From NCBI GenBank assembly GCA_037447655.1, contig JBBHKE010000962.1, forward strand, positions 295,822 to 317,321: DNA of 21,500 bases, given 5' to 3'. The notes below the pieces were generated by a model that was given only the letters and a program-made list of their open reading frames with translations, ran no database searches and was not told where the DNA came from. Positions 1,482-21,500 of this stretch are shown here, in pieces. Every line of letters begins with the position of its first letter. The first letter of the stretch is position 1. A program made the translations under genes and the position numbers. This DNA is from Zygnema cylindricum (Eukaryota; Streptophyta; Zygnematophyceae; Zygnematales; Zygnemataceae).

Positions 1482-2602
1482 TCTTTCTCGGTCTCTCTCT
1501 ACTTGATTACCAAAATATATCTTGCCTCCCCTATATCTTCCATTTCAAATCTCTCGTTATGAGAGGTTTTTATTTTATATAATTTTTCCATTGATTTCCT
1601 TAAAACAAGCAAATCATCAACATAAATTGCAATAAATATAACACCTTCATCATCTTCAAAAACATAGAATGAGTGATCTGAGCTTATCCGAATATATCCT
1701 TGACCGGTAAGAAACTCATCAAGCTTTTTATTCCACTGTCGAGGCGCTTGTTTTAAACCATAAAGAGATTTAATCAGCCGGCATACCTTACTCTCCTCTC
1801 TTTCCTCAACAAATCCTTTGGGTTGTCGCATGAATATTTCCTCTTCCAAATCTCCAAGCAAAAAGGTTGTCTTGATGTCCATCTGGTGCACCTCTATGTC
1901 TTCCGTTGCTGCTAGACTGAGAAGTATGCAGACGGAGGGAAATCTAACGACTGGGGCAATGGTTTCCTCGAAGTCGATTCCTTCTTTCTGTGTAAATCCT
2001 TTTGCCACTAATCGGGCTTTATAACGCTCAATGGTGTTATATGGGTTATGTTTTAATTTGAAGACCCACTTACAACCGATTGGTTTTCGGTTAGTAGGAC
2101 AATCCATCAGCTCCCAAGTATCGGCTGCCATAATTGAGGCCACCTCCTCATTGATGGCTTTCTTCCACCGGTTCCTTTCTGGACAAGTCATCGCCTCTCT
2201 ATAAGTTTGAGGTTCAACTTGATGAGATAGTTTTGTTACCTTGTTATTAAATTGTTTTTCTTGCAATTTTTTGCAACTTCTCCTTCCCCCCTCAAAATCT
2301 GTGGCCGGAATAGATGGTTCTCGTGGGTTCTTTCGAACAATCTCGGCTTCTCCCCTGTCTTTTGATTTCGAATTAATTTCCATCACGTCTTCCGCTTCGG
2401 GTAGAGTTGTCACTTGAGTTTCCGCAGCCGAGTCTTTTTCGGTCTGATTTGTACCTCCAAGAATGTCATCTTCTCTAAAACTTGGATAGTTAGGAAGCTC
2501 AAAGTCATCGAAATTTCCTGTCTCAAATCTGATTTTGACTGTTTTTGTATGCTTAAAGAGATCTATAGATTTTCCTTCATCCATAACCACTAGATGCTTC
2601 AC
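1482..2602 (-). pseudogene. pol: Copia pol, integrase C-term and reverse transcriptase (element 1)
   Basis: One open frame of 367 codons. It starts in the variable integrase C-terminus (an acidic linker with a KNPREPSIPA segment) and passes into the copia reverse transcriptase: CKWVFKLK, ERYKARLVAKGFTQKEGIDF, a KSLYGLKQAPRQW block and the catalytic YVDDLLVL. The frame ends at VIK followed by TAG, where element 3 reads IQMERDR. Homology continues out of frame for about 15 bases to 1483 and then stops abruptly at the LTR start of element A. RNase H is therefore missing. The annotated first Met is internal to pol, not a true start; the polyprotein continues upstream through a stop near 2700. Confidence 0.9.
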
Positions 2603-3321
2603 TAGGATAATATCCTCTCTTTTGAGATCATAGACTTTGTATCCTTTTACATCTTGATCATATCCTAGTAGATATCCTGGTTTTCCTTTTCCGTCTAACT
2701 TCTAGTTTGAGCGATCTATGTCTAAACTGAACACTTGACTACCGAAAACCTTTCAGTGTGAAACATGTGGTTTTCGGCCTGTCCATCCCTCATAGGGTGT
2801 TTGGCCTTTTACTGCTGAAGTAAGAACTCTTTTTTTGAGATAATTTGCACAGTTTCGGCCCAAAACTTCTTTCCTATCTTCGTATCTGACAACATACTTC
2901 TAGGTGTATCACTGAGTGTTCGATTTAATCTTTCAGCTACACCATTCTGCTCAAGATTTTCAGAAACTGTCTTTTGGTGTTGCACTCCATCTTCTCTCAG
3001 AAAATCCTCAAACTAGTTAGAGGTATACTCTCCACCATTGTCACTCTTGACTCTCTTGATTGAGGTTTCATGGATTTTTTCACTCCATGCTTTATATTGT
3101 TTAAAACATTCATGAGCCTCTGACGTATTTTTCAAAAAATACACCGTAGAATACCGAGCCTAATCATCGGTGATAGTCATCATAAATCTCTTCTCCCTGG
3201 GTGATGGCACTCTGGCCGGCCCCCAAATATCTGTGTATACTAAATCTAAAATCTTTTCTCCCTTATAGGTGGCAGTTTTTGGGAAGGGTAACCTCTGTGC
3301 TTTACCTTGAGCACATCCACT
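2603..3321 (-). pseudogene. pol: Copia integrase (element 1), three TAG stops and a frameshift
   Basis: Integrase core between protease and reverse transcriptase. Translating the minus strand gives GCAQGKAQRLPFPK (end of the zinc-binding N-domain), then the first catalytic Asp in YTDIW, the second in KSDNGGEY and the Glu in EQNGVAERLNRTL, so the D,D,E triad is retained. The frame is broken by TAG where relatives have Trp (DDWSRY, near 3163), by TAG where they have Gln (SNQFE, near 3014) and by TAG for Trp near 2702 (SNWKLD). Between about 2830 and 2750 a frame change disrupts the join to the C-terminal part. All three stops fit single C-to-T or G-to-A changes. Confidence 0.85.
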
Positions 3322-3849
3322 TCAATCACTTAGATTCTCACTTTCACCGAACTGAATCCCTTTCACTACTCCCATCTTTTTCATCTCTCTTAACTTATCT
3401 AGATCCACATGCCCAAGCCTCTTATGCCACAACATTATATCATGAACACCAGCATAATAAAGTTTCTTCTTTTTATTGCTTATAATCAGCCTAAACATCC
3501 CTTGGCTACCTTTTTCAGCAGTGAAATAAACTTCCTCCTCAAAACTAGCAGTAAAGACTCCTTTCCTAGTGCTAGTATCAAAACCCTTACCATCTAATAC
3601 AGACGTAGAGATGAGGGTTTTGTTCAGCTCCGGAATAAACAATACATCGGAGAATGTAACTATGGATGTCTTTCCTTCTACTAACACTTTTACATCTACC
3701 GATCCTACAAGAGTAGTAGTGACCATCCTCCCATCCTCGTGCTCTATCTCTACGATGGGAATCTTTCTCATCTTAGTGAACAGATGTTTATCTTTACACA
3801 TGTGCATGGATTCACCTGAGTCTACAATCCAGTCTGCTTCACCTTTCAA
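3322..3849 (-). pseudogene. pol: Copia protease and gag-pre-integrase (element 1)
   Basis: Aspartic protease of the copia type: the active-site block reads WIVDSGESMHMC, where the family norm is DSGAS, so the residue after Gly is changed (A to E) but the catalytic Asp is kept. A VTFSDVLFIPELNKTLIS segment follows, then the gag-pre-integrase domain with LWHKRLGHVDLDKLREM, whose His begins the integrase HHCC motif. The frame ends at a TAG-like break (LSD stop) at 3322, just before GCAQGK. It is separated from gag by about 20 bases and a frame change at 3850-3868. Confidence 0.9.
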
Positions 3850-3867
3850 TCCACCGGAAGCACATTT

Positions 3868-4981
3868 CTACATTCGTGGAATTTGGACCTCGTTTTTTGC
3901 TTCCAACTCCTCATCCAATCGGAGTTTATCGTCCTCGTCCTCGGATTCCGCCTCATGAACCTGTGTCACAAGGGCCTTTTTCTTTCCTCTTAGGGGTCCA
4001 CCGGTCTGCCCCTCGTTTAACCGCAGCTCGGTTAACTTAGTGCATTCAGCTATATAGTGCCCGGGTTTATTACAAAAATGGCACAAACCCTTGGGAGTCC
4101 TTGGTCCGAACTCGTCGGTCTGATTTTTTTGCCCCTCCCCTCGATAATTTCCAACTTGTTTCCTGAAATCATTGTTCCTCCAATCGGTCCCAGCTGCCAA
4201 TGCTTGCCCACTCTTTTCTCCCATTCGGATCTCAATCGTATTCTCCCGAACGAGAATCATCCATACCACTGAATTCCAAATCCACCTTGAGTCCTCCAAG
4301 TCATGCACACGGTTGACTATGTTCTCGAACTCATCGGGTAACTTCATTAGTAAACAGTTAACCTTTTCCTTTTCGCTAAATACTTTTCCAACACTCTCCA
4401 GTTCCATGAAAAATGTAGCAAGCTCATTCCAAAAGTCCAATATCTTCCCCCCCTTTGTATACATACTCCTTAATTTTCTAATCAGCCAACTATTGTTGCT
4501 GAATCGAACCACTTCAATACATCTGTTTGAGAGCCACCCAAAAATCGGATGCCCTCTATACTTGCAAATGGGGAGATGCAAGCCCTTGAGTTAGATGGCG
4601 GAGGATGAAGTGCTTAGCCGCCGTATTGTTGTAGTCCCAGGTATCAATATCATTCTCCTCGTTCCTCGGAATAGGTGACATGAATGCCGAACCGGTTGCT
4701 ATTGGTGTGACCGTCTCCTTCTCCTTTCCTTTGTCCACCACCTCCCCTTTTTTTGTCTCCTCCGTTGAAGATGGATCTGCATTTCTAGTGAATCTGCCTT
4801 GTGTAAACCCTGGTGGTATCCTAAGACTTGATGGACGCCTCACCCGTCCACTCACTATTTCCCAGAACCGTTTCTGACATAGAGCTCCTGTCATTATACT
4901 TTCCCAGTATATGAAGCCAGCTCCATTGGATATGGGCACCCTAGATGGTGGGCCCATAACTTGAAACTGTGAGACCTCCAT
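3868..4981 (-). pseudogene. gag: Copia gag with CCHC knuckle (element 1), one frameshift
   Basis: The start ATG at 4981 (MEVSQFQVMGPPSRVP) gives an N-terminal frame to 4556 containing the GFIYWE block, a low-complexity E/K/T linker and the FILRHLTQGLASPHLQV segment. A frameshift near 4570 moves to the frame 4581-3868, which holds the rest of the gag (KLPDEFENIVNRVHDL), the zinc knuckle CHFCNKPGHYIAEC (CX2CX4HX4C, near 4040-4085) and an acidic tail. Elements 2 and 3 carry the same gag, with MGPPSRVP as a shared landmark, which supports this start. The product would be the nucleocapsid that packages element RNA; this copy cannot make it in one piece. Confidence 0.9.
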
Positions 4982-5982
4982 AGGTCCTCAGAGTAGGCAG
5001 CTCACACGAAGCCTCTAAGATAACCTTAACCCTTTTGTGTTTCGGAAAGATTAATTGCCACCTTGGCAAAGAAAAACTCTGACCAACTTCACCCTTGTGA
5101 AGGCAAGACTCCCCTAAGTCGATAGCAAAAAGAATCTCTGAATTTGCTCCCTTGAGCAGTAAGTTATGGAGGGTCAAAGTTGACCTTTTGTACAGAAGCT
5201 CTCTAAGAGAGAGGGTCCTATCCACCAATTTTTTCTAAGTCCTATCTCTCTCTAAAACTCTATCTACTGATGTACGGCACCAACCATAGTACACTTCCGC
5301 ACACAAAAGTAGAGCTGCTGGTGTACTTTTTGTACGAATATTGTACGACATGGTCTAAATGTCGACACATGTCATATCCGGATTCGGTCTCGTAATCCTC
5401 AGAGATGCTGCGATCAAATGTAGTGTGCCACGTGTCATCCGATGTGGCGATGACCACAAACCGTCGAGATTCTTTTTCGCGATCTCGGCATTCTTCCCGT
5501 CTTGCGTGGTATTTGTTTCGTTTAAAGAAGCAAATGCGCGGTACTCGTTTCTTATCCGTACTGTAATCCGTACTTTTACATAATTGGATCTATGTATCCC
5601 AAAAACAGTTGTCGTTAAATGAATTATCCTATGTGGTAACAATTAAATACCTACATATCCTACATCACGTAACTTTATTCCTAGACTTAATTGATAAGTC
5701 TATTGACTACCGGCGGCTATATCGGACGGTAGGTACCAAGATCAAATCCTAGATTCGACATCCCATTTTAGTAAATACACTACCTATACGTAAATCAACT
5801 AATCTATTTCTCGTAAATCTCCGAATAGCATAGGCAATCATGGCTCTAGCTTCCTCTCCAACTTTTAGTGACTGCAAGAAGTGTGGGAGTTGAAGAGAGG
5901 AGTTAGAGGCAGATTGCCATGGCTTCTTTTCTACATTATATTTTAGACCTAGAAAATACTAAAATATCCATCAATTTCTACA
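4982..5982 (-). repeat. 5' LTR and leader of element 1
   Basis: Non-coding 5' region of element 1. The LTR start is TGTAGAAATTG at 5982, matching TGTTGAAAAT of element 3. The CTAGAAAATA block next to it is shared by elements 1 to 3. Going leftward come a decayed GTAC palindrome region (about 5270-5345), TAGGACTTAG (minus strand, 5235-5244), a mutated TATA box (TACAAAAGG at 5184-5192), the palindrome 5172-5185, and leader hairpins at 5107-5120, 5087-5102 and 5055-5069. I cannot fix the LTR/leader boundary. Small frames here (e.g. 4941-5228, 5355-5642) look like chance. Confidence 0.75.
5055..5120 (-). promoter_or_regulatory. Leader stem-loops of element 1
   Basis: Three hairpins lie in a row in the transcribed leader: GACTTAGGGGAGTC (5107-5120), CTTCACAAGGGTGAAG (5087-5102, six-pair stem, AAGG loop) and TTGCCAAGGTGGCAA (5055-5069). 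The middle one recurs in elements 3 and 4 with paired base changes in the stem. A role in packaging, priming or translation is possible but is inference. Confidence 0.55.
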
Positions 5983-6941
5983 TCTTGAAGTCCATCTGGT
6001 GTACTTCCATGTCTTCTACAGCTGCCAGACTGAGAAGCATCCGGACCGAGGGAAATCTGACTTGAGGAGGTTTCTTCGTAGTCTATTCCCTCTTTCTGAG
6101 TAAAACCTTTTGCCACAAACCGGGCCTTATACCGCTCAATAGTATTTTCCGGATTTAGTTTTAATTTGAAAACCCACTTACATCTAATTGGTTTTTGGTC
6201 GGGTGGATAGTCCACCAACTCCCATGTATCAGCCGCCATGATTGAAGCCATCTCTTCATTGATGGCCGTCTTCCACCGGTTTCTTTTCGGGCAGTTCATT
6301 GCCTCTCGATATGTTTGAGGTTCATCCGGGTGAGAGAGTTTAGTGACCTTGTTGTTAACTTGTTTCTTTTGATGCCTTTTGCTGCTTCTTCTCCCTCTCT
6401 CAAAATCTGCTGCTGGAATAGATGGTTCACGTGGATTCTTTCGAATCACCACGGCTTCTCCCATGTCCCTTGGATCCATATCCATTTCCACCACGTCTTC
6501 TGCTTCAGGTATAGGTGTCATTGGTGTTTCCAAGTCCAAGTCTTTCTCGGTCTGTTTTGAATCTGCAAGAATGTCATCCGAACCTGCAACAGTATCATCT
6601 TCTTGGAGACCTGGATAGTTAGAAAGATGGAAGTCATCGGAATTGTCTGACTCAAATCTGATTCTGACAAACTTTGAGGATTTGAAGGGATCTACTGACT
6701 TGCCTTCATTCATAGCTACCAGGTGCTTTACTAAAATTATATCTTCTCTCTTTAGATCATACACTCTATATCCTTTTACATCCTCATCATATCCCAGCAA
6801 GTATGTGGGTTTCCCTTTAGGATCTAGTTTCCAGCTAGATTTATCTGTATCTAAACTGAAGACTTTACTGGCGAAAACCTTTAAGTGAGATAGATCTAGT
6901 TTTTCGCCGGTCCATTTCTCATATGGAGTTTGGCCTTTCAT
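5983..6941 (-). pseudogene. pol: Copia pol, integrase C-term and start of RT (element 2)
   Basis: The frame begins in the integrase C-terminal part (TPYEKWTGEKLDLSHLKVFASKVFSLD), crosses the acidic variable linker (KNPREPSIPAADFERGRRS) and enters the reverse transcriptase (CKWVFKLKLNPENTIERYKA). After KEGIDYEET it shifts: the TFAPVV segment is replaced by SSSQISLG, which fits a deletion near 6065. The remaining out-of-frame sequence still encodes the conserved QMD block before the junction with element 1 at 5983. The YVDD half of the enzyme is absent. The first Met is internal; the polyprotein came from upstream. Confidence 0.9.
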
Positions 6942-7639
6942 CGCTCAAGTTAGTACTCTATTTCTCAAATAATAAGCACAATTCATAGCTTCGGCCCAAA
7001 AAAATTTTCCTATCATTTTATTTGACAACATACTCCGCGCACTATCATTTAGTGTCCTATTCAATCTCTCGCCAACACCATTCTATTCCGGGTTTTTCCG
7101 GAATTGTCTTTTGATGTTGCACACCGTCCTCACTTAAGAACTCCTCAAACTGATTGGAGGTATATTCCCCTCCATTCTCACTTCTTACTCTCTTTATAGA
7201 GGTCTCGTGAAGCTTCTTGGCCCATGTTTTATATTGTTTGAAATACTCCGGAGTTTCTGATTTGTTTTTCAAAAAATATACCCGAGAGTACCGAGACCAA
7301 TCATCAGTAATGGTTAGCAGAAATCTTTTCCCTCCGGGTGATAGCACTCTTGCCGATCCCCAAATGTCCTTGCGTACCAAATCAAGATTTTTTCTCCTTT
7401 ATGGGTTGCTTCCTTTGGAAATGGTAATCTATGTGCTTTACCCTGAGCACACCGATTGCAATCACTTAAATCTCATTTTCCCCAAAGCGTATCCCATCTT
7501 CAACTACTCCCATCTTTTTCATTTCTTTTAACTTTTCTAGATTCACATGCCCAACTCTCTTATGCCACAACATAATATCATTGACACCAGCATAGTAAAG
7601 TTTGAGTTTTTTATTACTTAAAGCAAGCCTTAACATTCC
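6942..7639 (-). pseudogene. pol: Copia integrase and gag-pre-integrase (element 2), broken
   Basis: The best frame (7380-7057) carries KDIWGSARVLSPGGKRF (first catalytic Asp), ITDDWSRYSRVYFLKNKSE and RSENGGEY, in which the second catalytic Asp is replaced by Glu (relatives have CDNGGEY or SDNGGEY). It then shifts just before the EQNGVAERLN block, so the Glu of the triad is out of frame (near 7075-7090). Upstream, 7440-7640 still shows the CAQGK and RLGH segments in broken frames; downstream, 6942-7056 encodes the SARSMLSNKMIGK and FWAEA region with stops. The triad change and the frameshift make it inactive. Confidence 0.8.
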
Positions 7640-8044
7640 TTAGCTACCTTTCTCAGCAATGAAATACACATCTTCCTCAAAGCTAGCTGTAAAAACTCCT
7701 TTTCTAGTGCTAGTTTCAAAAACTTTATTATCTAATACAGATTTAGAGATAAGGTTTTTGTTTAACTTTGGAATGAACAATACATCGGAGAATGTAACTA
7801 TTGAGGTTTTACCTTCCACTATGACTTTCAGATCTACCGATCTTACATAAGTAGTGGTAACTACCCTCCCATCCCTATATTCAATCTCTACGGTAGGAAT
7901 ATTTCTCAGCTTAGTGAACAGATGCTTATCCTTGCACATGAGCATGGAGGCACCTGAATCCACAATCCAACCCCCTTCACCTTTCAGTCCACCGAAAGCA
8001 CATTTTTGCTTCCGTGGAATTTCGACTTCTTTCTTTGCCTCCAA
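7640..8044 (-). pseudogene. pol: Copia aspartic protease (element 2)
   Basis: Frame of 134 codons beginning inside the gag-protease linker (EIPRKQKCAFGGLKG). It contains the intact copia protease active site WIVDSGASMLMC, then VEIEYRDGRVVTTTYV and VTFSDVLFIPKLNKNLISKSVL, and ends at a TAG after AEKGS where element 1 reads GSQGMFRL (CAG-to-TAG-type change). This is the only protease of the three in the window with an unaltered DSGAS. It aligns throughout with 3322-3849 and 13655-14150. Confidence 0.9.
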
Positions 8045-8110
8045 CTCCTCATCTAAAAAAAGTTCGTCGTCCTCCTCATCGGATTCTTCCTCAAGTACCT
8101 GTGTGACAAG

Positions 8111-9124
8111 TTACTTTTTCTTCCCTCGTGGCTGACCACTGGTCTGCCTCTCCTTTATCCGAAGCTCGGTCAGTTTGGTACATTCCGCCATGTAATGCCC
8201 GGGTTTCGTGCAAAAATGACAAAGCCCCTTAGGTCCCCTTGTTCTGGACTCATCGGATTGTTTTTTCTCGATTTCCCCTCCATGACTTCTAAGGGTTTTC
8301 TGTGAACCTTTGTTTCTCCAACTTGCTACAGCCGCCAAGGCTTGTCCACTCTTAGATCCTCTCCGGATCTCGATTGTATTCTATCGGACGAGGATCATAC
8401 CAACTACCGAATTTCATATCCACCTGGAGTCCGACAGATTTTGTACCCGGTTCACAATGTTCTCATACTCATCGGGTAGTTTCATGAGTAAGCAGTGAAC
8501 TTTTTCCTTCTCGATTTCAGCTTTTCCAGCAGACTCTAACTCCATGAAGAGTATATCCAGCTCATTGTAGAAATGGAGCATCTTCTCTCCTTTGTGAAAG
8601 CATCCATTGATCTTTTGTTCTGCCTGCTTCTGTTCCTAAATCATATCGCTCCGGTACATATCTATAAACGCATCCCACAGATCGGATGTCCTTTCCACTT
8701 GCAAATGAGGACCTGCGAGTCCTTATGTGAGATGACGCAGGATAAAGTGCTTGGTTGCCATGTTGTTGTAGTCCTAAGTATCGATGACATTCTCCTCATT
8801 CCTCAAAATAGGAGACATGAAAACAGAACCGGTTGCTTTAGGTGAGGTTTTCTCTTTTTCTGTCCCCTTTTCCATCACGATGCTTTCTCCGTCTTGTGAG
8901 TCCTCTGATGGCGGTGGATCTGGTTTCCTAGCAAATTTGCTTCCTCCAAACCTTGGAGGGATAGCAAGAACAGATTGACGCTTTACTCGCCCACTCACTA
9001 TTCATCAATATCTTTTCTCACGAAGGGATCCCATCATCATACTCTCCCAGTAGATGAACCCAGTCTTGTTCAATGTGGGCACCCTAGAGGGTGGGCCCAT
9101 AACCTGCAACTCTGAGACCTCCAT
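8111..9124 (-). pseudogene. gag: Copia gag with CCHC knuckle (element 2), heavily broken
   Basis: The start is inferred at ATG 9122-9124, whose downstream codons match MEVS and then MGPPSRVP of element 1. The frame 8998-8774 holds the middle variable linker (MSGRVKRQSVLAIPPRFGGSKF, then an E/K/S-rich run ending in RNEENVIDT). The frame 8338-8111 holds the C-terminal part with the zinc knuckle CHFCTKPGHYMAEC and a basic RGKKK end. Between them (8774-8338) the FILRHL and KLPDEYEN segments can be recognised in changing frames. At least three shifts or stops separate the pieces, so it is a gag relic. Confidence 0.85.
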
Positions 9125-10107
9125 TGGTGCTTAGAGTACGGAGCTTATTAGAAGCCCCTAGGATAGCCTCAATTCCTTAGTCTTTGTGTGAGTGTTACTG
9201 ACACCTTGACAGAATACAGACTAACCAGATTGCAGACCTTGGAAGAGCAGACTCCTTTGAGTCAACTACAAAAAAAATCCTTAAATTTTCTCCCCTGAGC
9301 ACTAAATTATCAATGGTCAAAGATGACCTTTTATACAAGGGCACTCTTGGAAGAGAGGCGGCTACTTCTAATTCTCCTAAGTCCTAAACCCCTCTTTGAT
9401 GCCTCTACAACTGAAATACAGAACAATCTAATCACAGTACAGTACAGAAAGGTACTTGGTCTGGAGTACTTTCTGTACGGCTATTGTACGACATTGCCAA
9501 GAAGACGACGCCTGCCATATCCGTGTTTGCCATGGTATGCCCCGAAGATGCCGCTATCTAATTTCATGTTGCCACGTGTCACCTGGTGTGGCTGTTACCA
9601 CAAACCGCCAAATCGTCCATTCCGTGATCTCGACTTCTTCCTCCGCCATTTGATTGATATCGGCCTTAATTTATAGCCGTTTAAAATACAAGCAGTACCT
9701 TTTGATGTAATTTTATCTAACTATATCTATCTGATTGTGGTTTGTTCATCAATTAAATGAACTTCTCTAATTCCACGTCTTTAAATAGCTATCGTACCAT
9801 TTTTACTTCGACACATGTGCTAGGCTACATGGTAACGACAATATGCTTACTTGGACGGACGGTGGGTACCACGATCAAAATCTTCGGTCCGTCAACCTTT
9901 TTGGTAAGTTTTCCAAAGGGTTGCCTTCTGACTCTAGGGGAAGCATAGGCTGCCATGGCATAGCTTCCTCTCCAGCCTTTAGTGACTACGACAAGTATGG
10001 GGGCTAAAGAGAGAAGTTAGAAGCAGGCTGCCTCTGCTTTTTCTTGCTCCTATAAAAATCAATTAAGTAACCTAGAAAATACCTAAGTAAACCTTTCATT
10101 TCAAAAC
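9125..10107 (-). repeat. 5' LTR and leader of element 2
   Basis: Non-coding 5' region of element 2. The LTR start lies near 10107; its first bases are altered relative to the TGTTGAAAAT/TGTAGAAATT start of elements 3 and 1, but the CTAGGTTA/TATTTTCTAGG block (about 10070-10087) aligns. Further in: GTAC palindrome (9442-9478), TAGGACTTAG (9377-9386), TATAAAAGG on the minus strand (9327-9335), post-TATA palindrome (9315-9328) and a GACTC/GAGTC hairpin (9250-9263). The second leader hairpin is degraded here. Small plus-strand frames over this stretch have no family support. Confidence 0.75.
9315..9335 (-). promoter_or_regulatory. Core promoter (TATA box plus palindrome) of element 2
   Basis: Minus strand reads TATAAAAGG (9327-9335), overlapping the palindrome GGTCATCTTTGACC (9315-9328). 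Equivalent TATA-like sequences sit at the same place in element 3 (15445-15454) and element 4 (16356-16364) and, mutated to TACAAAAGG, in element 1 (5184-5192). Position 200 bases before gag fits a Pol II start for the genomic RNA. Confidence 0.6.
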
Positions 10108-10164
10108 TAGTTCCCTCTCACAACCCCTATCTAGTGACTATACAACGAATAATATCACTGTACA

Positions 10165-10201
10165 GTACAAGAAAGTACTACTGCCGATGTACTTTCTGTA
10201 C
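10165..10201. repeat. GTAC inverted repeat in LTR U3
   Basis: GTACAAGAAAGTAC (10165-10178) faces GTACTTTCTGTAC (10189-10201) across a 10-base spacer, and each arm is itself a near-palindrome. The same arrangement occurs in the 5' LTR (15561-15597) and in element 2 (9442-9478), with decayed traces in element 1. Confidence 0.7.
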
Positions 10202-10560
10202 GACCTCTGTAAGACAAGGCCATTAAGCACACGCGTGTCCACTTTCCACTCGTTTGTATATTCCTGTTAATTCCCACTACCAAATGTTATCCCTCCACGT
10301 GGCGCCAAGTCATGCCGCGTCATAAAGCGCAAAAGTGACCATTCTGGGACCTCGACGATGATGTTTGCCGTCGGATAAAAACCCGCATTCAATATTTGAC
10401 CGTCGAAACAAATGTCCGATTCATTTGTTTCGCGCGGTATTATATACGCACTGTATATAACATGTTCTATGTCGTTTCATTTGTATTTGCGTTCATCGGT
10501 TTATCGACCATAACATAGTTTAAATATTAATCATACCCTATATACTTCAACGAACTTGTA

Positions 10561-10660
10561 CGACAGATCGGTTACGGCTGGCGGCTACGCCTCGCTTTGC
10601 CGGTCGGAGGTTCGAGTCCTGTTGGACTCAACCTTTTGTTGAGAGTGACTTAAGTCACTC
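10561..10660 (+). repeat. tRNA-like B box plus palindromes in LTR
   Basis: GGTTCGAGTCC at 10609-10619 is an exact match to the Pol III B-box consensus GGTTCGANTCC, on the strand opposite to the element. It is followed by a six-pair hairpin CTCAAC-cttt-GTTGAG type (10627-10643) and a perfect 18-bp palindrome (10643-10660). The 5' LTR copy (about 15958-16057) has the same layout with changes. No full tRNA cloverleaf can be drawn, so this is a remnant, not a tRNA gene. Confidence 0.5.
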
Positions 10661-10834
10661 TTTAGTCCTGCTTATTAGGTTTAGGCAGCGATGGCTTCCC
10701 TTCTATTTCTCTCTCTCTCCTTCAATGACTATAACAAATATGGGGGGTAGAGAGGAAACGTGAAAGCAGACTGCCTACTCTTTTTTTATATTTTAGACCT
10801 AGAAAATATCTTATAAATCTAGTCATTTTCAACA

Positions 10835-10850
10835 CTCCCCTTATTTTCTA
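10835..10850 (-). other. Polypurine tract of element 3
   Basis: The minus strand reads AAATAAGGGGAG directly before the TGTTG start of the 3' LTR. A purine run at this place is the expected primer for plus-strand DNA synthesis. It begins only about four bases after the stop of the RNase H frame at 10854. Confidence 0.8.
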
Positions 10851-10853
10851 GTC

Positions 10854-11666
10854 TTATTTTAATTTTTCTTTTAGTTCACATTTTTCTCCGCAAAATTTTA
10901 ACTTGGGAGAGGGCATGGGTTTGGTCATCATGTGAGCTAACATTTCTTCATAAGATCTATACACAAGATTTACAATTTTATTTTCAAATTTCTCCCTCAC
11001 AAAGCTTAATCTTATATCCATATGTTTAGCTTTGAAATGATGTTCTGGATTGGCTGCATTTGCAATGGCAGCCTGATTATCACAAAAAACCGCATGCACT
11101 CCCTTCTTCATATACCCCAGTTCTTGCTACAAAGACTTGACCCACATTAATTCTTTCACAACAGAATAAGAGGCCATATACTAAACCTCTATAGTAGACT
11201 GAGCAACCACCTTTTGTTGCTTACTGCTCCAACAGCAAGCATCTTCCCCCAATTACAATACATATACTGAAATGCATCTTCTCATAGGTGCATCCCCATA
11301 ACTGGTATCACTCCAAGTAGTGATATCAATGTTCTCCTCACCCAAATGCAACCATAACTCTGTGGTTCTAACCAGATATCTCATGACTCTCGTGGCTTCT
11401 TCCCAATCTCTCTTCCTAAGATCGTTAAGACTCTTACTCAGGACTCCTACTTTTGCCGCTATGTCCCGCCTTGTACAGTTCATAAAGTAGATCAAACTTC
11501 CTACTACATGTTTATAAGGAATAGACTTCATAAACTCTCTCTTCTCTGGACTCATCTGAACATCTAAGATTATCACTCGTCCATCTACACTCCCATCACT
11601 TACTTTCTTCAAGTCCATGGGAGTGGTACAACTGTTTGCTTTCTCCATCTGGAATTTCTCAAGCAT
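10854..11666 (-). pseudogene. pol: Copia RNase H (element 3), broken
   Basis: C-terminal part of pol. The frame 11666-11253 begins with the connection segment (EKFQMEKANSCTTPMD, YKHVVGSLIYFMNCTRRDIA) and reaches the first RNase H block TTWSDTSYGD, which keeps an Asp; it then shifts. The frame 11111-10854 holds the second half: VFCDNQAAIANAANPEHHFKAKHMDIRLSFVRE, with the CDNQ Asp and the KHIDI-like block typical of copia, and ends at TAA just before the polypurine tract. The stretch 11112-11252 encodes the linking SRRQ-type segment in changing frames. One or two indels split the domain. Confidence 0.9.
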
Positions 11667-11669
11667 GTT

Positions 11670-12302
11670 TCATATTACTTCTTTCTGAGTGAGTCTAATG
11701 ATTCTTTTCCCCCTATCTCTTTCCATTTGAATTCCCAAAATATATCTTGCCTCCTCGAAATCCTTCATGTCAATTCTGCTTCTAAGATCTTTCTTCAACT
11801 TATTCATCTTTTCTAAAGACTTACTTAACACTAGCATATCATCCAAATAAATTGCAATAAAAATCACACCATCCTAATCTTCAAACATATAGATAGAATG
11901 GTCAGAGCTGATCCGAATATATCCCAGACTAGTAAAAAACTCATCTAGTTTATTATTTGACTGTCGGGAGACTGCTTAAGAACATATAAGGACTTTATGA
12001 GCCCGCAGACTTTGCTCTTTTCCCCATTCTCCACAAACCCTTCCGTTGCAGCATGACGATTCTTCCTCTAACTCACCATTGATGAAGGGGGTCTTAATGT
12101 CCATCTGAGGTATCTCCATGTCTTTCGCTGCTGCTAGACTGAGGAGAATCCTTACCAATGGGAACCGAACAACAGGAGCAAACGTCTCCTCATAGTCTAT
12201 CCCCTCCTTTGGGGTGAACCCCTTTGCTACCAAACGGGCCTTATATCTTTCAATGGTATTATCTGGGTTCAGTTTCAGTTTTGAAAACCCATTTACAGCC
12301 AA
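11670..12302 (-). pseudogene. pol: Copia reverse transcriptase (element 3), broken
   Basis: Frame 12302-11976 carries KLKLNPDNTIERYKARLVAK, KEGIDYEETFAPVVRFPLVR and QMDIKTPFINGELEEE, then shifts (the MRQP block is replaced by SSCCNGR). The SLYGL and SDHS(I)Y blocks follow in broken frames between 11976 and 11868. Frame 11867-11670 has IFIAIYLDDMLVLSKS, so the catalytic motif is YLDD instead of the family YVDD (both Asp kept), followed by EEARYILGIQMERDRGKRII. That last segment gives the reference for where element 1 is cut. Frameshifts and stops prevent a product. Confidence 0.9.
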
Positions 12303-12853
12303 TAAGTTTTATTTTCTAGAGGACAATCTGCTAGCTCCTAAGTATTTGCTTCCATGATGGAAGCCATCTCATCATTTATGGCTCTAATCCATCTGACTTT
12401 TTCTGGGCTGTTCACTACCTCCAAGTATGACTGAGGCTCATCGAGATGAGTTACATTAGTTACCTTACGAGCAGCTTGTTTCTCCTATATCCTTTTGTTG
12501 CTCGTTCTTCTTCCCTCAACCTCTAAAGCTGGAATAGAGGGAAGTCTTGGGTTTCTCCTTACTGTCTCAACGTCTCCCCTATCCATAGAAGTTGGGTCCG
12601 GTTCCTCCACTTCTGTCTCCTCGAAGTCCATAGGAATATGTGAGGTATCCGGTTACTCTCATGTTTCTTGGATCTCCCCTCAATGTGCAATGAGTGTCTC
12701 ACTCAAATCCCTTTCGGGAAACACAAAGTTCTCCTCACTTTCGACCTCAAACCCGATTCTTATCTTTTTGGTATATTTGAAGGGGTCAATTATCTTTCTT
12801 TCATCCATGACAACTAGGTGTTTCACTAGAATGATATCTTGCTTTGCTAAGTC
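12303..12853 (-). pseudogene. pol: Integrase C-terminus / RT linker (element 3), broken
   Basis: Corresponds to the acidic linker of elements 1 and 2. The minus strand shows HLVVMDERKIIDPFKY near 12820-12780, an RRNPRLPSIPALEVEGRRTS block near 12510-12570 and a YLEVVNSPEKVRWIRAINDE block near 12370-12430. Several stops interrupt it, among them TAG for the Trp of the ADTWEL block near 12336. The plus-strand frame at 12495-12857 is a shadow of this. Confidence 0.75.
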
Positions 12854-13625
12854 CTAGACTCTATATCCCTTGACATCCTCATCATTTCCTACAAAATATA
12901 CAGGTTTTCCCTTAGCATCAAGTTTCCAGTTTTTTTCATTCGTATCTAGACTATAAACTTGGCTACCAAATACTTTAAGGTGAGAGATATCCGGTTTTCT
13001 TCCAACCCATCTCTCATAAGGTGTCAAACCTTTGACTACTGAGGTAAGGACTTTGTTCTTAATATATTTGCCACAAGTCATGGCTTCTGCCCAAAATCTC
13101 TTTCCTATTTTCTTGTCAGCCAACATACTGCTTACACTATCTCTTTCCTATTTATCTCTTTCCTATTTTCTTGTCAGCCAACATACTGCTTACACTATCT
13201 CTTAGTGTTCGATTTAACCTCTCAGCTACTCCATTTTGCTCGGGATTATGTGGTACAGTTTTATGGTACTGCACTCCCTCATCTCTCAAGTATTCCTCAA
13301 ACTGGTTAGAGGCATATTCTCCCCCATTATCACACCTTATTCTTTTAATGGGGGTTCCATGCAACTTCTCACTCCAGGCTTTATATTCTTTGAAGTAAGT
13401 TGGTGTTTCAGACTTCGTTTTTAGGAAGTAGACTCTAAAATATCTGGACCAGTCATGAGTAATTGTTATCATATACCTCTTCCCTCTAATTGAGGGTACC
13501 CTTGCTCGTCCCCAGATATCTGTGTGAATCAAATCTAGTACCTTTTCTCCCCTATATGTGGCGGCTTTAGGGAAAGGAAGTCTGTGAGAATTACCTTGGG
13601 CACAGCCCCTACAATCATCCACCAT
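12854..13625 (-). pseudogene. pol: Copia integrase (element 3) with 58-bp tandem duplication
   Basis: Frame 13625-13152 reads DCRGCAQGNSHRLPFPK (end of the HHCC zinc domain), HTDIWGRARVPS (first catalytic Asp), THDWSRYFRVYFLK, RCDNGGEY (second Asp) and EQNGVAERLNRTLRDSVSSML (Glu): the triad is complete. A 58-base tandem duplication (13101-13158 repeated from 13159) then repeats the SVSSMLADKKIGKR segment and, not being a multiple of three, shifts the frame. Frame 13126-12854 resumes with LADKKIGKRFWAEAM, TPYERWVGRKPDISHLKVFGSQVYSLD. Apart from the duplication this is the best-kept integrase in the window. Confidence 0.9.
13101..13202. repeat. 58-bp tandem duplication in integrase
   Basis: The block starting TTTCCTATTTTCTTGTCAGC at 13101 recurs at 13159. 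The first 44 bases are identical and the shift is 58. The duplicated segment ends in short TCTCTTTCCTATTT repeats that could have favoured slippage. Confidence 0.85.
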
Positions 13626-13654
13626 TTCATTATCACTGAACTGAATGCCTTCTA

Positions 13655-14150
13655 CTACATTTTCATTTCCCTCAACCTATCAAAGTGCACATGCCCCAAC
13701 CGCTTATGCCAAATCATCAATTTTGGGACACCAACATAGTAAGCATTCTTCTTTTCATTACTCAGGTTAAGCCTAAACATTCCTTGGCTTCCCTTATCTG
13801 TAGTGAAGTAAACTTCATCCCCACACTTAGTTGTAAAGACTCCCTTTCTAATAAAAGTGTCAAACTCTTTGTCATCTAACACAGATGTAGAGACAAGATT
13901 TTTACTCAGCCGAGGAATCTAGAGCACATCTGAGAAAGTGAGTAAAGAAGTCTTACCCTCCACTAAGACTTTCAGATCTACTAATCCCACTAGATTTGTA
14001 GTAACCACTCTCCCATCCCAATATTCTATTTCTATAGTAAGGATTTTTCTAAGCTTAGTGAAGAGGTCCTTGTCACGACACATATGCATAGATGCACCTG
14101 AGTAGATGATCCATCCTTCTTGTGGAGCTTCCCGAATTGCTTCAAGGGCA
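13655..14150 (-). pseudogene. pol: Copia protease and gag-pre-integrase (element 3), active Asp lost
   Basis: The protease block reads WIIYSGASMHMCRDK (about 14110-14075): the catalytic Asp of DSGAS is replaced by Tyr, a single-base change. VEIEYWDG-like and LLTFSDVL segments follow to a stop at 13919 (VL then TAG). The frame 13882-13655 carries the FDTFIRKGVFTTKCGDEVYF segment and the gag-pre-integrase domain MIWHKRLGHVHFDRLREM. It runs on into integrase after a frame change at 13655-13625. The upstream part of frame 14374-13919 is the gag C-terminus and linker. Confidence 0.88.
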
Positions 14151-15254
14151 CACTTCTGTCTCCGAGGGATCTCTTTCTCATCCAGACTCTCGTTAAGAAG
14201 AAGCTCCCCATCCTCCTCAGAGGACTCGTCCTCGGTTTCTCCTGTCCCTTTTGTGACCATAAGTGCCTTTTTCTTCCCTCCGGAAAAACCCCCTCCACGG
14301 TTCTCCTCGAGCCTCATCTTTGATAGCTTGTACAATCCGCGATAAAGTGTCCCAAAATTTTGCAAAAATGGCATAGGCCCTTTTGAGGCTTTGGTCCTCT
14401 AGGCTGAACCCTTTCTCCTTTGTATGGTTTTTTGGGTCTTGTCTCCACCTATCCCCTCCAGAGGCTAGAGCTTGAACGATTTTTCCCCCTCTCCTGATCT
14501 AAATCGTGTTCTCCTGCACAAGTATCATGCGGACCACTGTATTCCACTTCCATCAACTATCAGTCATTTCTTGTACGTGGTACACTATGTTCTCATACTT
14601 GTCTGGTAACTTTATGATGAGAGTGTTAACTTTTATTTATTTTGTACTTGTCCATCTGGCACCCTCCATCTCCATATATAGATAAGAAAGATCATTACAG
14701 TTGTCTAACATCTTTGCCCCTTTGTAAGTATAATTTCCCAACTTTTGCTCTGCCAACTGGAGCTCCTGAATAATACCTGCTCTATAGATCTCTATCAAAC
14801 TAACCCACAACTCCTTCGCCTTGTAAACGTGAAGATGAGGAGTTTCCAAAGCTTGAGTGAGATGTCTCAAAATGAAGTTCTTGGCAGCCATGTTGGTGTT
14901 TTCCCACATTTGGGTGTCATTCTCCGCGGTCTTCACGATCCCCGCTCCGGATGTGGTGGAAATAGGAGCAATGGGAGTAAGAGGTGTCTCCTTTTCTTTC
15001 CCCTTTTCGGACAAGCTGGTGTCTCCATCATCTGCCTCCTCCGCTGCAGCAGATGCCGCTGTACAAAACCTTACTCCACCGAACCGTGGTGGAGTTCCTT
15101 GAGGTGGACGTTTCACTTGTCCACTTACAATACCCCAGTATCGTTTTTCCCACAAAGCCCATGTTATCATGGCTTCCCAATAGATCAACCTTGATCCATT
15201 GAAGATGGGCACCCTAGAGGGTGGGCCCATAACCTGTAATTATGTGTCCTCCAT
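14151..15254 (-). pseudogene. gag: Copia gag with CCHC knuckle (element 3), broken
   Basis: The ancestral start (ATG at 15252-15254) now runs into TAA after four codons; the usable frame starts at 15230 with MGPPSRVPIFNGSRLIYWE. It extends to 14637 through the alanine-rich linker, FILRHLTQALETPHLHVYKAKELW and LSYLYMEMEGA. From 14636 to 14375 the gag continues in changing frames. The zinc knuckle CHFCKILGHFIADC (CX2CX4HX4C, about 14330-14372) is out of frame with the basic/acidic C-terminus read in 14374-13919. At least two indels are needed to explain the breaks. Confidence 0.88.
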
Positions 15255-15502
15255 TGGACTACAGAATTCGAAAGCCTGTTGATAGTTGTTAACTATCCCA
15301 ATTCCAATGGCAACCACCACTGCCCAAGCAAACAACTAGACAATATGACTGCACTTATGTGCAGCCTGGACAACCCTGAGTTTGTACAAAAATGAATCAC
15401 TGAAAACGCCCAACCAGCCGATTAGTTATAGGGTGGCAAAGATGCCAATTTATAAAAACTCTCAAAGAGAGAGATGACTACCTACCATATTTTTCTAAGT
15501 CC
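15255..15502 (-). promoter_or_regulatory. Leader of element 3 with TATA box and hairpins
   Basis: Between the LTR-matching sequence and gag. On the minus strand from right: TAGGACTTAG (15495-15504), TATAAATTGG (15445-15454), palindrome TGGCATCTTTGCCA (15434-15447), hairpin CTGCACATAAGTGCAG (15349-15364) and a weaker GGCAGTGGTGGTTGCC hairpin (15309-15324). The TATA box lies outside the part of the LTR that matches the 3' copy, which suggests the real LTR extends into this region. No canonical primer binding site was found. Confidence 0.6.
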
Positions 15503-16229
15503 TAGTTCCCTCTCATAACCCCTATCTACTGATTGTATGAGCTAATAATATCACTGTACAGTACAAGAAAGTACTACTGCCGATATACTTTTTGTACGGC
15601 CTCAGTACGACAAGGCCATAAAGCGGACGCGTGTCCACTTTCCACTCGTCTGTACGTTCCTCTTAATTCCCACGACCAAATGTTATCTCTCCACATGGCT
15701 CTAACTCATGCCACGCCATAAAACGCCAAAGTGACCATTCGGGGATCTCGGCAATGATGTGCGCCGTTGGATAAAAACCCGCATTCAATATTGACAGTCA
15801 AAACAAATGTCCGATTCATTTGTTTCTTGCGGTATTATATTCGCACTGTATAAAACAAGTTCTATGTCGTTTCATTTGTATTTCCGTTCATCGGTTTATC
15901 AACCATAACATAGTTTAAATATTAATCATACCGTATACACTACAACGAACTTCTAGGACAGACCGGTTAGGGCTGACGTCTACGCCTCGCTTTGCCGGTC
16001 GGAGGTTTGAGTGTTGCTGGACTCAACCTTTTGTTGAGAGTGACATAAGTCACTTTTTAGTCTTGCTTATTAGGTTGAGGCAGCCATGGCTTCCCTTCTA
16101 TTTCTCTCTCTCTCCTTCAGTGACTACAACAAGTATAGGGGATAGAGAGGAAACGTGAAAGCAGGCTGTCTGCTCTTTTCTTTAATTTTAGACCTAGAAA
16201 ATATCCTATAAATCTAGTGATTTTCAACA
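15503..16229 (-). repeat. 5' LTR of element 3 (part matching the 3' LTR)
   Basis: Pairs with 10108-10834. It starts TGTTGAAAATCACTAG on the minus strand at 16229; GTAC palindrome at 15561-15597; tRNA-like block near 15958-16018 with a decayed B box (GGTTTGAGTGT); near-palindrome AGTGACATAAGTCACT close to 16040. Most differences from the 3' copy are transitions. Confidence 0.85.
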
Positions 16230-16810: not shown

Positions 16811-16881
<71 letters not shown>

Positions 16882-16894
16882 CATATATATATAA
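16811..16894. repeat. (AT)n microsatellite
   Basis: About 34 uninterrupted AT repeats (16811-16878), then TTTAC and a shorter (AT) run to about 16894. Polymorphic and cruciform-prone; its length in an assembly may be inaccurate. Confidence 0.95.
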
Positions 16895-18275: not shown

Positions 18276-18608
18276 TTAGCGTAAATTCTTTGTTATAAAA
18301 CACATCGCCCATATGTTTTAAAGAAGAGTTTGAAGATGACGTTATTTGGCTTGGCCATGGGTCGAAGAACACAAGACGACAACATGTAGTAGTACATCCT
18401 AAATGTGACGATGACGCAAAATGTACTTCTCTTTTATTCTATTTTTTTGTATGGTTAAAACTTACGTGGTACGGCTGAAAGTTTTACTGGAAAACGACAA
18501 AAAAAATGCCTTACTTTGGCACATGGAGAGGCACCCTAATTCACTAAAAAGCGAAATACAATGTGAATTTATTTTAAGTGGTTATAGAGATACGTCCAAA
18601 GCCTAAGT
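18276..18608. other. Intergenic stretch with an unrecognised frame
   Basis: A plus-strand frame (18421-18606) ends WHMERHPNSLKSE and EFILSGYRDTSKA; it carries no motif I recognise and may be a fragment of the same locus as the zinc-finger-like frame. The last 30 bases contain an AAGTGGTTATA word that recurs right of the next element (20069 and, shorter, 20091). Confidence 0.3.
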
Positions 18609-18914
18609 GTCCAATTCGTACTGATTTCGACTTTTTTACGATTTTTACGTAGTATTCGTTACTTTCATAGCGTTCGTTAGCTTTCGATGTACGATGTACG
18701 AAACCGTATTGAAGCCGTCCCCTTATTCCTAAAAAATCCATAAAAAATCTTAGAACGTACGAAAAACATATGGAAATGTACGACATTGTACGAAAGGTGC
18801 ACCCTAAAAAACCTAAGAGTACGGATAATGTAAGGTTGTTGTACTGTAATTTGCCGGAATGTAAAAAATGCACGGGAAGTACCCTAAACACACTAAAATC
18901 CCCCCTTCAATAAC

Positions 18915-18922
18915 CCTAAAAG
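18915..18922. repeat. Target site duplication, left (8 bp)
   Basis: cctaaaag directly left of TAGTGTTGGG; identical to 19317-19324. Confidence 0.9.
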
Positions 18923-19316
18923 TAGTGTTGGGTATCAGGTAGTTTCATATCGCGATAATTTCGATATTCGATATATCGAATATCGATCGAGGAGATTCTT
19001 CGATATATCGTATCGGGACCAACATAAATTATCGCGATATACATCGCAAAAATTGCATATCCATACAGTCAGACTACGGAAAACCGTAAGAAAAAGCGTA
19101 CGGAGAATCGCACGAAAAATCGTACGGATATTTTGCCCCCGGCCCGAGATAAAAAAATTCTAAAATTTTCATTTTCGATATATCGTCGATACGATATATC
19201 GGCGATATATTGCGATAATTTGAAATTCGATATATCGAAGCGATATATCGAATATCGGGTACATGAAATTCGATATATATCGAATATCGGCAATGGGTCC
19301 TCGATACCCAACACTA
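18923..19316. mobile_element. hAT-type MITE, 394 bp, copy 1
   Basis: Terminal inverted repeats TAGTGTTGGGTATC and GATACCCAACACTA, perfect over 14 bases, flanked by a perfect 8-bp duplication (cctaaaag). An 8-bp duplication with TAGNG-type ends is the hAT superfamily signature. No transposase frame. The interior is full of ATCGATAT/CGATATATCG palindromes, including a perfect 26-bp one at 18961-18986. Near the right end it holds one copy (about 19257-19290) of the segment that forms the array in copy 2. Confidence 0.88.
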
Positions 19317-19324
19317 CCTAAAAG
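19317..19324. repeat. Target site duplication, right (8 bp)
   Basis: cctaaaag directly right of CCCAACACTA; identical to 18915-18922. Confidence 0.9.
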
Positions 19325-20290
19325 TATTGAAATATTCGGACGTTGTACGTAGATGTACGAAGGATGTAAGTCCGTATAATTGAAATATTCAGAAAGGTAC
19401 GAAAATGTACCCTAATAATCTCAAAATAATAACCGTCAAAAGTACGATTATATACGGACACTCTACGTAAATGTACGAATAAAAGTTGGTTTGTTTAACA
19501 GAAATATATGAGAATGCACGAGAATGTACCCTAAACCTCAATCCCCCCTTAATAACCCTAAAAGTACTGAAATGTACGAAGACATTACGCAAATGTCTGA
19601 AAAAGTACGGTACGGTAAAAAGTACAAATATACGGTATGCATCAAACGATGATGAAAAGTAAGTACAATGCGTACCTTACTTTGTACCCGTACAATATTT
19701 TTTACACTTACGTACAGTGTCCGTCTATGTTCGTACATTTTAGGGTTATTTTAGGGGATTTTTTAGGGTTTTCAAGGTACATCGCCGTACGTTCCTTTAT
19801 ATTTCAGTACGGCTGTCGATGCATTCCTACTATTTGGTTTTTAAGGGTACACTTTCATACAATTTCGTACATTTCTGTTAATTTTCCGTTTTTTTTTAGA
19901 TTTTTATGGATTTTCTAAGGTTAGGATTTCCGTACGTTTTTGTACATGGCCGTACATCGAAATTTACACGAATTTTACGAAAAGTATGAAATTGATGAAT
20001 GCTACTTTGTTTTCGTAAAAAAATTGAAATCCGTACGAATTGGACATCAACGTTCCAAAGGTTGCAAGTGGTTATAAAGATTCGCCGAGGGTGGTTATAA
20101 CTAGTGTTGGGTATCGGGTAAATTCATATCTCGATAATTTCGATATTCGATATATCGAATATCGATCGGGCAGACTCCTCGATATATCGTACCGGGACCA
20201 ACATAAATTATTGCGATATATATCGCAATAAATGGGTATCCGTACATCTAAAGTACAGAAAATTGTACGGTAAATCGTACGGAACCCCGT

Positions 20291-20345
20291 CACCCCCCCA
20301 CCCCCACTGAGCGCGCGCCACGGGGGGCGAAGGGGGGGGGGGGGG
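20291..20345. repeat. C-run / G-run pair in MITE copy 2
   Basis: CACCCCCCCACCCCC near 20291-20305, then GCGCGCGCC, GGGGGG, and a run of 14 G (20332-20345). The corresponding place in copy 1 is only TGCCCCCGGCCCGAG (about 19134). Could form a hairpin or G-quadruplex; run lengths may be unreliable. Confidence 0.75.
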
Positions 20346-20396
20346 ATCGGGAAGAATAATAAAAAATCGCATAAATATCGGGATATTTAGTTTCTA

Positions 20397-21500
20397 GGTA
20401 CATGGATTCGATATATATCGATTATCGGGTACCTAAAATTCGATATATATCGAATATCGGGTACCTAAAATTCGATATATATCGAATATCGGGTACCTAA
20501 AATTCGATATATATCGAATATCGGGTACCTAAAATTCGATATATATCGAATATCGGGTACCTAAAATTCGATATATATCGAATATCGGGTACCTAAAATT
20601 CGATATATATCGAATATCGGGTACCTAAAATTCGATATATATCGATTATCGGGTACCTAAAATTCGATATATATCGAATATCGGGTACCTAAAATTCGAT
20701 ATATATCGATTATCGGGTACCTAAAATTCGATATATATCGAATATCGGGTACCTAAAATTCGATATATATCGATTATCGGGTACCTAAAATTCGATATAT
20801 ATCGAATATCGGGTACCTAAAATTCGATATATATCAAATATCGGGTACCTAAAATTCGATATATATCAAATATCGGGTACCTAAAATTCGATATATATCG
20901 ATTATCGGGTACCTAAAATTCGATATATATCGAATATCGGGTACCTAAAATTCGATATATATCGAATATCGGGTACCTAAAATTCGATATATATCGATTA
21001 TCGGGTACCTAAAATTCGATATATATCGAATATCGGGTACCTAAAATTCGATATATATGGAATATCGGGTACCTAAAATTCGATATATATCGAATATCGG
21101 GTACCTAAAATTCGATATATATCGATTATCGGGTACCTAAAATTCGATATATATCGAATATCGGGTACCTAAAATTCGATATATATCGATTATCGGGTAC
21201 CTAAAATTCGATATATATCGAATATCGGGTACCTAAAATTCGATATATATCGATTATCGGGTACCTAAAATTCGATATATATCGAATATCGGGTACCTAA
21301 AATTCGATATATATCAAATATCGGGTACCTAAAATTCGATATATATCAAATATCGGGTACCTAAAATTCGATATATATCGATTATCGGGTACCTAAAATT
21401 CGATATATATCGAATATCGGGTACCTAAAATTCGATATATATCAAATATCGGGTACCTAAAATTCGATATATATCAAATATGGGTACCTAAAATTCGATA
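20397..21500. repeat. 32-bp minisatellite array, at least 34 units
   Basis: Exact period 32. Each unit has GGGTACCTAAAATTCG followed by ATATATATC and a variable triplet before TATC. The core TTCGATATATATCGAA is a 16-bp palindrome and GGTACC gives a KpnI/Acc65I site per unit. Four variants occur at the triplet: GAA (major), GAT, AAA (from CAAATATC) and one with GGAA. The first unit (20397-20428) has GGTACATGGATTCG, closer to copy 1 of the MITE. One unit near 21479 lacks two bases. The array runs beyond the window. Confidence 0.97.

Follow-up and report, generated by a model that had tools for sequence, protein, structure and literature searches.

A 32-bp minisatellite that was probably born inside a hAT-type MITE of Zygnema cylindricum

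Introduction

How is a minisatellite born, and do its first steps survive in the genome that carries it? The question is raised by a stretch of 21,500 nucleotides from Zygnema cylindricum (the window, C719:295822-317321 of the 352.8-Mb assembly with its 2689 contigs), at the right border of which a 32-bp unit is repeated in tandem directly behind the left part of a MITE. Several MITE-derived arrays have been reviewed (PMC9659126, PMC12628747, PMC6947457), and in the model of Haber and Louis 1998, as outlined in the cited part of PMC6947457, short repeats flanking a motif come first, followed by duplication and expansion. Here we argue that the array in the window is very probably a young minisatellite, amplified locally within a single MITE copy of the non-autonomous hAT type.

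Results

The array in the window

The following features are required for the argument (window positions):

18915..18922, no strand: left 8-bp target site duplication CCTAAAAG of MITE copy 1, 8/8 against 19317-19324
18923..19316, plus strand: MITE copy 1, 394 bp, 14-bp perfect TIRs TAGTGTTGGGTATC (18923-18936, 19303-19316)
19243..19290, plus strand: 1.5-unit seed of copy 1, ATATATCGAATATCGG at 19243 and 19275, spacing 32, linker GTACATGAA
19317..19324, no strand: right 8-bp target site duplication CCTAAAAG of copy 1; the best-scoring paralogous empty site keeps one duplication
20102..20405, plus strand: MITE copy 2, left part as far as the array, starting with the TIR of copy 1
20381..20410, plus strand: left flank of the seed, of the type of copy 2's subfamily (GGATATTTAGCTTCTCCGTACATGGTCTCG in relatives), including TACATG at 20399-20404
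20406..21500, plus strand: 32-bp minisatellite array, 34.2 copies in the window, 97% matches at period 32, continuing into 5000 N
20413..20460, plus strand: opening 48 bp of the array, the same as the 1.5-unit seed in array-less relatives (e.g. L024, L035, L036, L038)

The array thus has the more than 34 tandem units that a sequence-only reading of the window had counted. Read in frame it comprises 34 units, 33 of which fall into four types, i.e. one main type and three others that each differ from it by a single base, and the last of which carries a one-base deletion; in pairwise comparison units 1-33 have a mean identity of 0.976. The unit contains an 18-bp perfect palindrome, ATTCGATATATATCGAAT. 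As single-stranded DNA a run of three units folds far better than its shuffles (z -6.1); a single unit does not (z -1.3). A conserved hairpin was considered and rejected: the point variants, at unit positions 14, 15 and 17, all fall within the same arm of the palindrome and all break pairs, none of them being compensated, so that there is no sign of selection for a hairpin. We found no support for a function of the array.

Units 22-32 repeat units 7-17 without any difference, as an 11-unit block at a lag of 15 units; a repeat of this length is reached by 4 of 20000 unit shuffles and by 27 of 5000 neighbour-preserving shuffles. Moreover, at a lag of 480 bp 573/576 bases of the array are identical, as compared to 97.2-98.3% at the seven other lags tried. 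Both results suggest that a block of approximately 15 units was duplicated once the array existed, and the 15-unit (480-bp) super-repeat is likely the trace of such a multi-unit block event. Contig breaks are frequent in tandem arrays, and this one stops exactly at the start of the 5000 N, i.e. its length or the block repeat might be a product of the assembly. We regard such an artefact as quite unlikely, as the point variants are ordered among the units and as copies with 2.5 and 3.5 units exist in other contigs with other flanks. A real, locally grown array remains the reading that we follow.

A further tandem repeat of the window is an (AT)41.5 microsatellite at 16811-16893. The region 1492-16229 harbours three related copia-type retrotransposon bodies on the minus strand (approximately 1492-5497, 5983-9641 and 11716-15257), which share 64-74% DNA identity over the longer matches; the 120 matches listed include copia relatives with 36-53% identity. 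The third body is bracketed by direct repeats of 728 bp (10107-10834 and 15502-16229, 89%) that start with TGTTG when read on the minus strand and resemble LTRs of this body; a flanking duplication was not seen around them. Rfam and tRNA searches of the window gave no hit, and scans of viral contigs and genome contigs, from which records near the genome of the window were possibly left out, returned no locus.

MITE copy 1 carries a seed of 1.5 units

Copy 1, with its perfect TIRs and its 8-bp duplication, was found where the sequence-only reading had placed it. Its paralogous empty site is the opposite arm of the host element, with an alignment score of 47 if one duplication is kept, as compared to 39 with both duplications and 30 with none. 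The host is an element with long inverted arms (18608-20046, ~1.04 kb excluding copy 1), in which copy 1 is nested; the arms start with TGTCCAATTCGTAC, GTAC words are frequent and diverged ~120-bp repeats lie inside. Copy 1 folds strongly as single-stranded DNA (z -8.4).

The segment of copy 1 that had been described as a single unit is indeed unit-like, matching the array unit in 30/32 bases, but the count has to be corrected to 1.5 units: the seed at 19243-19290 agrees with the array period in 46/48 bases, and its 16-bp repeat is exact. The best unit match in 1000 dinucleotide shuffles of copy 1 is 25/32, and the best one elsewhere outside the array is 21/32. Shuffling in 8-base blocks gives 29 at most, and 12-base blocks reach 30 in 6/1000 cases because the element itself is full of such palindromes.

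Copy 2 resembles copy 1 in its left half, as had been proposed, with 154/182 bases alike over 20102-20283. From there to about 20346 G and C runs are abundant, and once the array-like segment is removed the middle parts of both copies align at shuffle level only (146/500 reach the score). Two joined units match the left end of either copy better than shuffles do (the score is reached in 0 of 1000 for copy 1 and in 13 of 1000 for copy 2). The idea that the unit is a copy of the left-end motif was rejected nevertheless, as the match consists of shared CGATATAT palindromes from base 44 of the element on and does not involve the terminus.

The seed precedes the MITE right end at other places of the genome

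The sequence-only reading had proposed to search the genome for the 32-mer. Of the 904 candidates of a two-unit genome search 40 were scored, and all 39 places listed outside C719 were read; these are the best matches and hence no random sample. In 39/39 of them the MITE right end follows the seed, and 37 contain 1.5 units, with 2.5 units in L011 and 3.5 units in L010. The palindrome motif TCGATATATATCGAWTATCGG occurs at 947 exact places in the genome, its reversed pattern at one. A second batch was drawn from these, consisting of 19 places (roughly every fifth of the 100 that were listed) plus a place on C1084 (L049). All 19 and the C1084 place lie before the MITE right end (at most 3 mismatches), and none is amplified. 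In 58/58 other places (39 best and 19 sampled) the last palindrome lies 26 bp ahead of the MITE right end, which supports the earlier proposal that the array originated from part of a hAT-type MITE. The usual element contains 1.5 units: a 16-bp repeat recurs almost unchanged 32 bp further on, behind a linker. Extrapolating from the 947 motif places, approximately 30 of which are inside the array, the family may have about 900 copies.

Counted automatically, linker plus palindrome occurs once in 55 of the 59 fetched places, twice in L011, three times in L010 and not at all in L055 and L062, where the linkers are deviant and the segment is single by eye; consequently, 57/59 places are single. 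A mark of amplification, i.e. a full palindrome followed by GTAC, occurs in exact form at 31 genome places: 27 in the array of the window, two on C486 (L010), one on C621 (L011) and one on C1084 (L049). The latter was rejected as an amplified locus, its first palindrome merely being two bases longer. In the whole assembly the exact mark revealed no further long array, a search that diverged or assembly-collapsed arrays would escape. For satellite DNA long or many arrays would be expected, as compared to the single long one detected here.

The hAT superfamily is characterised by 8-bp TSDs and TIRs of 5-27 bp, according to the cited section of PMC3517528. Copy 1 has an 8/8 duplication and short, 14-bp TIRs. 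Among the 39 loci of the first batch, 21 have a left TIR and eight of these an 8-bp duplication, L014 and L016 not being independent; in the second batch it is three of the six loci with a left TIR (of 20). Agreement is 7/8 in L030, L032 and L051 and 5 bases at most in the remaining 11 first-batch and two second-batch loci, with a left flank of only 4 bases in L018. The distance from TIR to TIR is 272-841 bp in the 21 first-batch loci with both TIRs. The array lies between both TIRs in L011 (flanks 8/8) and in L010 (flanks only 5/8); of copy 2 in the window the left end alone is readable. Judged from the form of the TIRs and the 8-bp duplications, the element would be a non-autonomous hAT-type MITE.

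Three observations concern the surroundings of individual copies. L014 and L016 lie on different contigs and have the same duplication, CTTGTAAG, and the same right flank; they result from a segmental duplication or are the two haplotypes of a single insertion. The flanks of L024, L027, L029, L030, L038 and L039 resemble each other (e.g. CACCGTGAATCG or its complement), most of them lacking a duplication that matches, which would fit a MITE that often lies next to or within one other repeat. In L015 a stretch of about 420 bp holds three right-end motifs, which may be MITE ends in tandem or nested.

Copy 2 belongs to another subfamily than copy 1

Copy 1 had been taken for the progenitor of the array, and the first unit, with TACATG, for a transition unit that retained the ancestral linker. 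Neither view can be upheld. The stretch before the array matches GGATATTTAGCTTCTCCGTACATGGTCTCG in 25/30 bases (score 40, maximum of 1000 shuffles 21), as compared to a score of only 19 with the other flank type, that of copy 1. The flank GGATATTTAGCTTCTCCGTACATGGTCTCG precedes the seed in 8/59 fetched places (L013, L024, L035, L036, L038, L049, L053 and L058; scores 48 to 60), none of which has an array, and five of these (L024, L035, L036, L038, L053) have the CCTAAA linker. TACATG at 20399-20404 is therefore the left flank of copy 2's subfamily, and copy 1 was rejected as the direct progenitor since copy 2 carries a different flank type. The CATGAA linker of copy 1 accompanies its own flank type, common to L010 and L054. 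In the relatives with flank GGATATTTAGCTTCTCCGTACATGGTCTCG, CGATTATCGG is found in the first half of the seed in 6/8 and CGAATATCGG in the second half in 7/8; these halves are likely the source of the B and A units, which alternate in parts of the array.

The genome reads N over 5000 bases from the base directly after the window (C719:317322-322321), and an exact TIR was not found in the 2279 bases beyond the N run. With its right end hidden by the N run and no exact TIR in these bases, copy 2 might have been cut by a rearrangement. As this right end is not seen, one could also imagine that an unrelated, pre-existing satellite or minisatellite was inserted or recombined into copy 2. This is very unlikely, however, given that 20413-20460 equals the single seed of copy 2's relatives behind the same kind of flank, and that the exact mark revealed no other long array. 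If, as we favour, the array grew inside the element, it should be followed by the MITE right end, GGTCCTCGATACCCAACACTA or a close variant, and then by GTTATAAC.

Amplified copies probably arose more than once

The three amplified copies differ in their linkers, which are CCTAAA in copy 2, CATGAA in L010 and CATTAA in L011. Within L010, within L011 and within the 32 automatically recognised units of copy 2 the linker is uniform (besides the flank). L010 and L011 are close relatives (356/367 aligned bases) and could share one first step, with a change of the linker afterwards. Since copy 2 is separate and L010 and L011 possibly go back to one step, there were at least two births, probably three. 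On balance, we lean towards the view that the family constitutes many hundred natural replicates that generally share the same primed seed, minisatellites arising in them independently of one another.

Alternatively, the family might be older as a bearer of arrays, the single-seed copies being arrays that shrank to 1.5 units; for the clam element DTC84, the cited part of PMC5139131 argues that internal arrays shrank to a monomer. We consider this very unlikely for the present family, as 57/59 fetched places are single across both flank types and several linkers, and as each larger copy has its own uniform linker, which points to growth in place. Growth from a seed, in contrast, is in line with the stages observed: all copies read have the seed just ahead of the right end, there are copies with 1.5, 2.5, 3.5 and at least 34 units, and each array has one linker, i.e. 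seeds, intermediates and a long array coexist.

Discussion

The 48-bp seed just before the MITE right end is made up of a 16-bp half unit, a linker and the 18-bp palindrome, and the right part of this palindrome, together with the following bases, repeats the 16 bp exactly or nearly. As these repeats are spaced by 32 bp, slippage or unequal exchange between them would add exactly one 32-bp period. We infer that the first duplication may have occurred by slippage (or unequal exchange), perhaps aided by the palindrome, leaving no direct trace, and that the array may then have been enlarged by unequal exchange or conversion of multi-unit blocks.

The birth of minisatellites inside MITEs is already known, and the sequence-only reading's view of the locus as a rarity does not hold, since a MITE unit that exists as monomer or array has been published (miDNA4); it is the set of stages that is unusually complete here. 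The comparisons below refer to the cited portions of the respective sources. The nearest known cases are miDNA4 and Xstir of Xenopus. miDNA4 (Scalvenzi and Pollet 2014) is a Tc1/mariner MITE with an internal satellite (PMC9659126, PMC12628747). Like the MITE studied here it contains its internal unit singly or in arrays of variable number, with short direct repeats proposed as driver, but it belongs to another superfamily. Xstir (Hikosaka and Kawahara 2004) also has tandem repeats of an internal sequence and occurs in MITE, composite and array forms, which we count as a likeness; the route proposed for it, however, involves two neighbouring elements and stem-loop excision, whereas here one element is enough. 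In Tetris of Drosophila virilis (TIR-220, PMC4079207) internal tandem repeats of the element seed longer arrays, as is the case here, although with a ~220-bp unit located in foldback TIRs and with arrays of kb size, as compared to 32 bp and the one long array found in our case. BrickBuilt of Porphyromonas gingivalis (PMC4596501) is similar in that a 23-nt minisatellite lies in a MITE with small inverted-repeat ends; it is bacterial, however, and defined by its tandem repeat, whereas arrays are the exception in the present family. Our literature search, which covered open-licence PubMed Central, yielded no hAT MITE with a minisatellite that we recognised as closer.

The seed corresponds to the starting state of the kind described by Haber and Louis 1998, with 16-bp repeats 32 bp apart, but the repeats of that model have 5-10 bp, whereas here 16 bp plus a palindrome are preset in many copies. 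Usually, the first duplication of a minisatellite has to be deduced from the end product; in this genome the state before duplication, two small steps and a long array are found side by side, in copies of one element that started from much the same sequence. The step size of 32 bp is predicted by how far apart the 16-bp repeats lie and the starting copies are countable, and thus the flanking-repeat model could be tested by resequencing individuals. If the minisatellites of this family were indeed born independently, the rates of birth and growth would be measurable within one genome.
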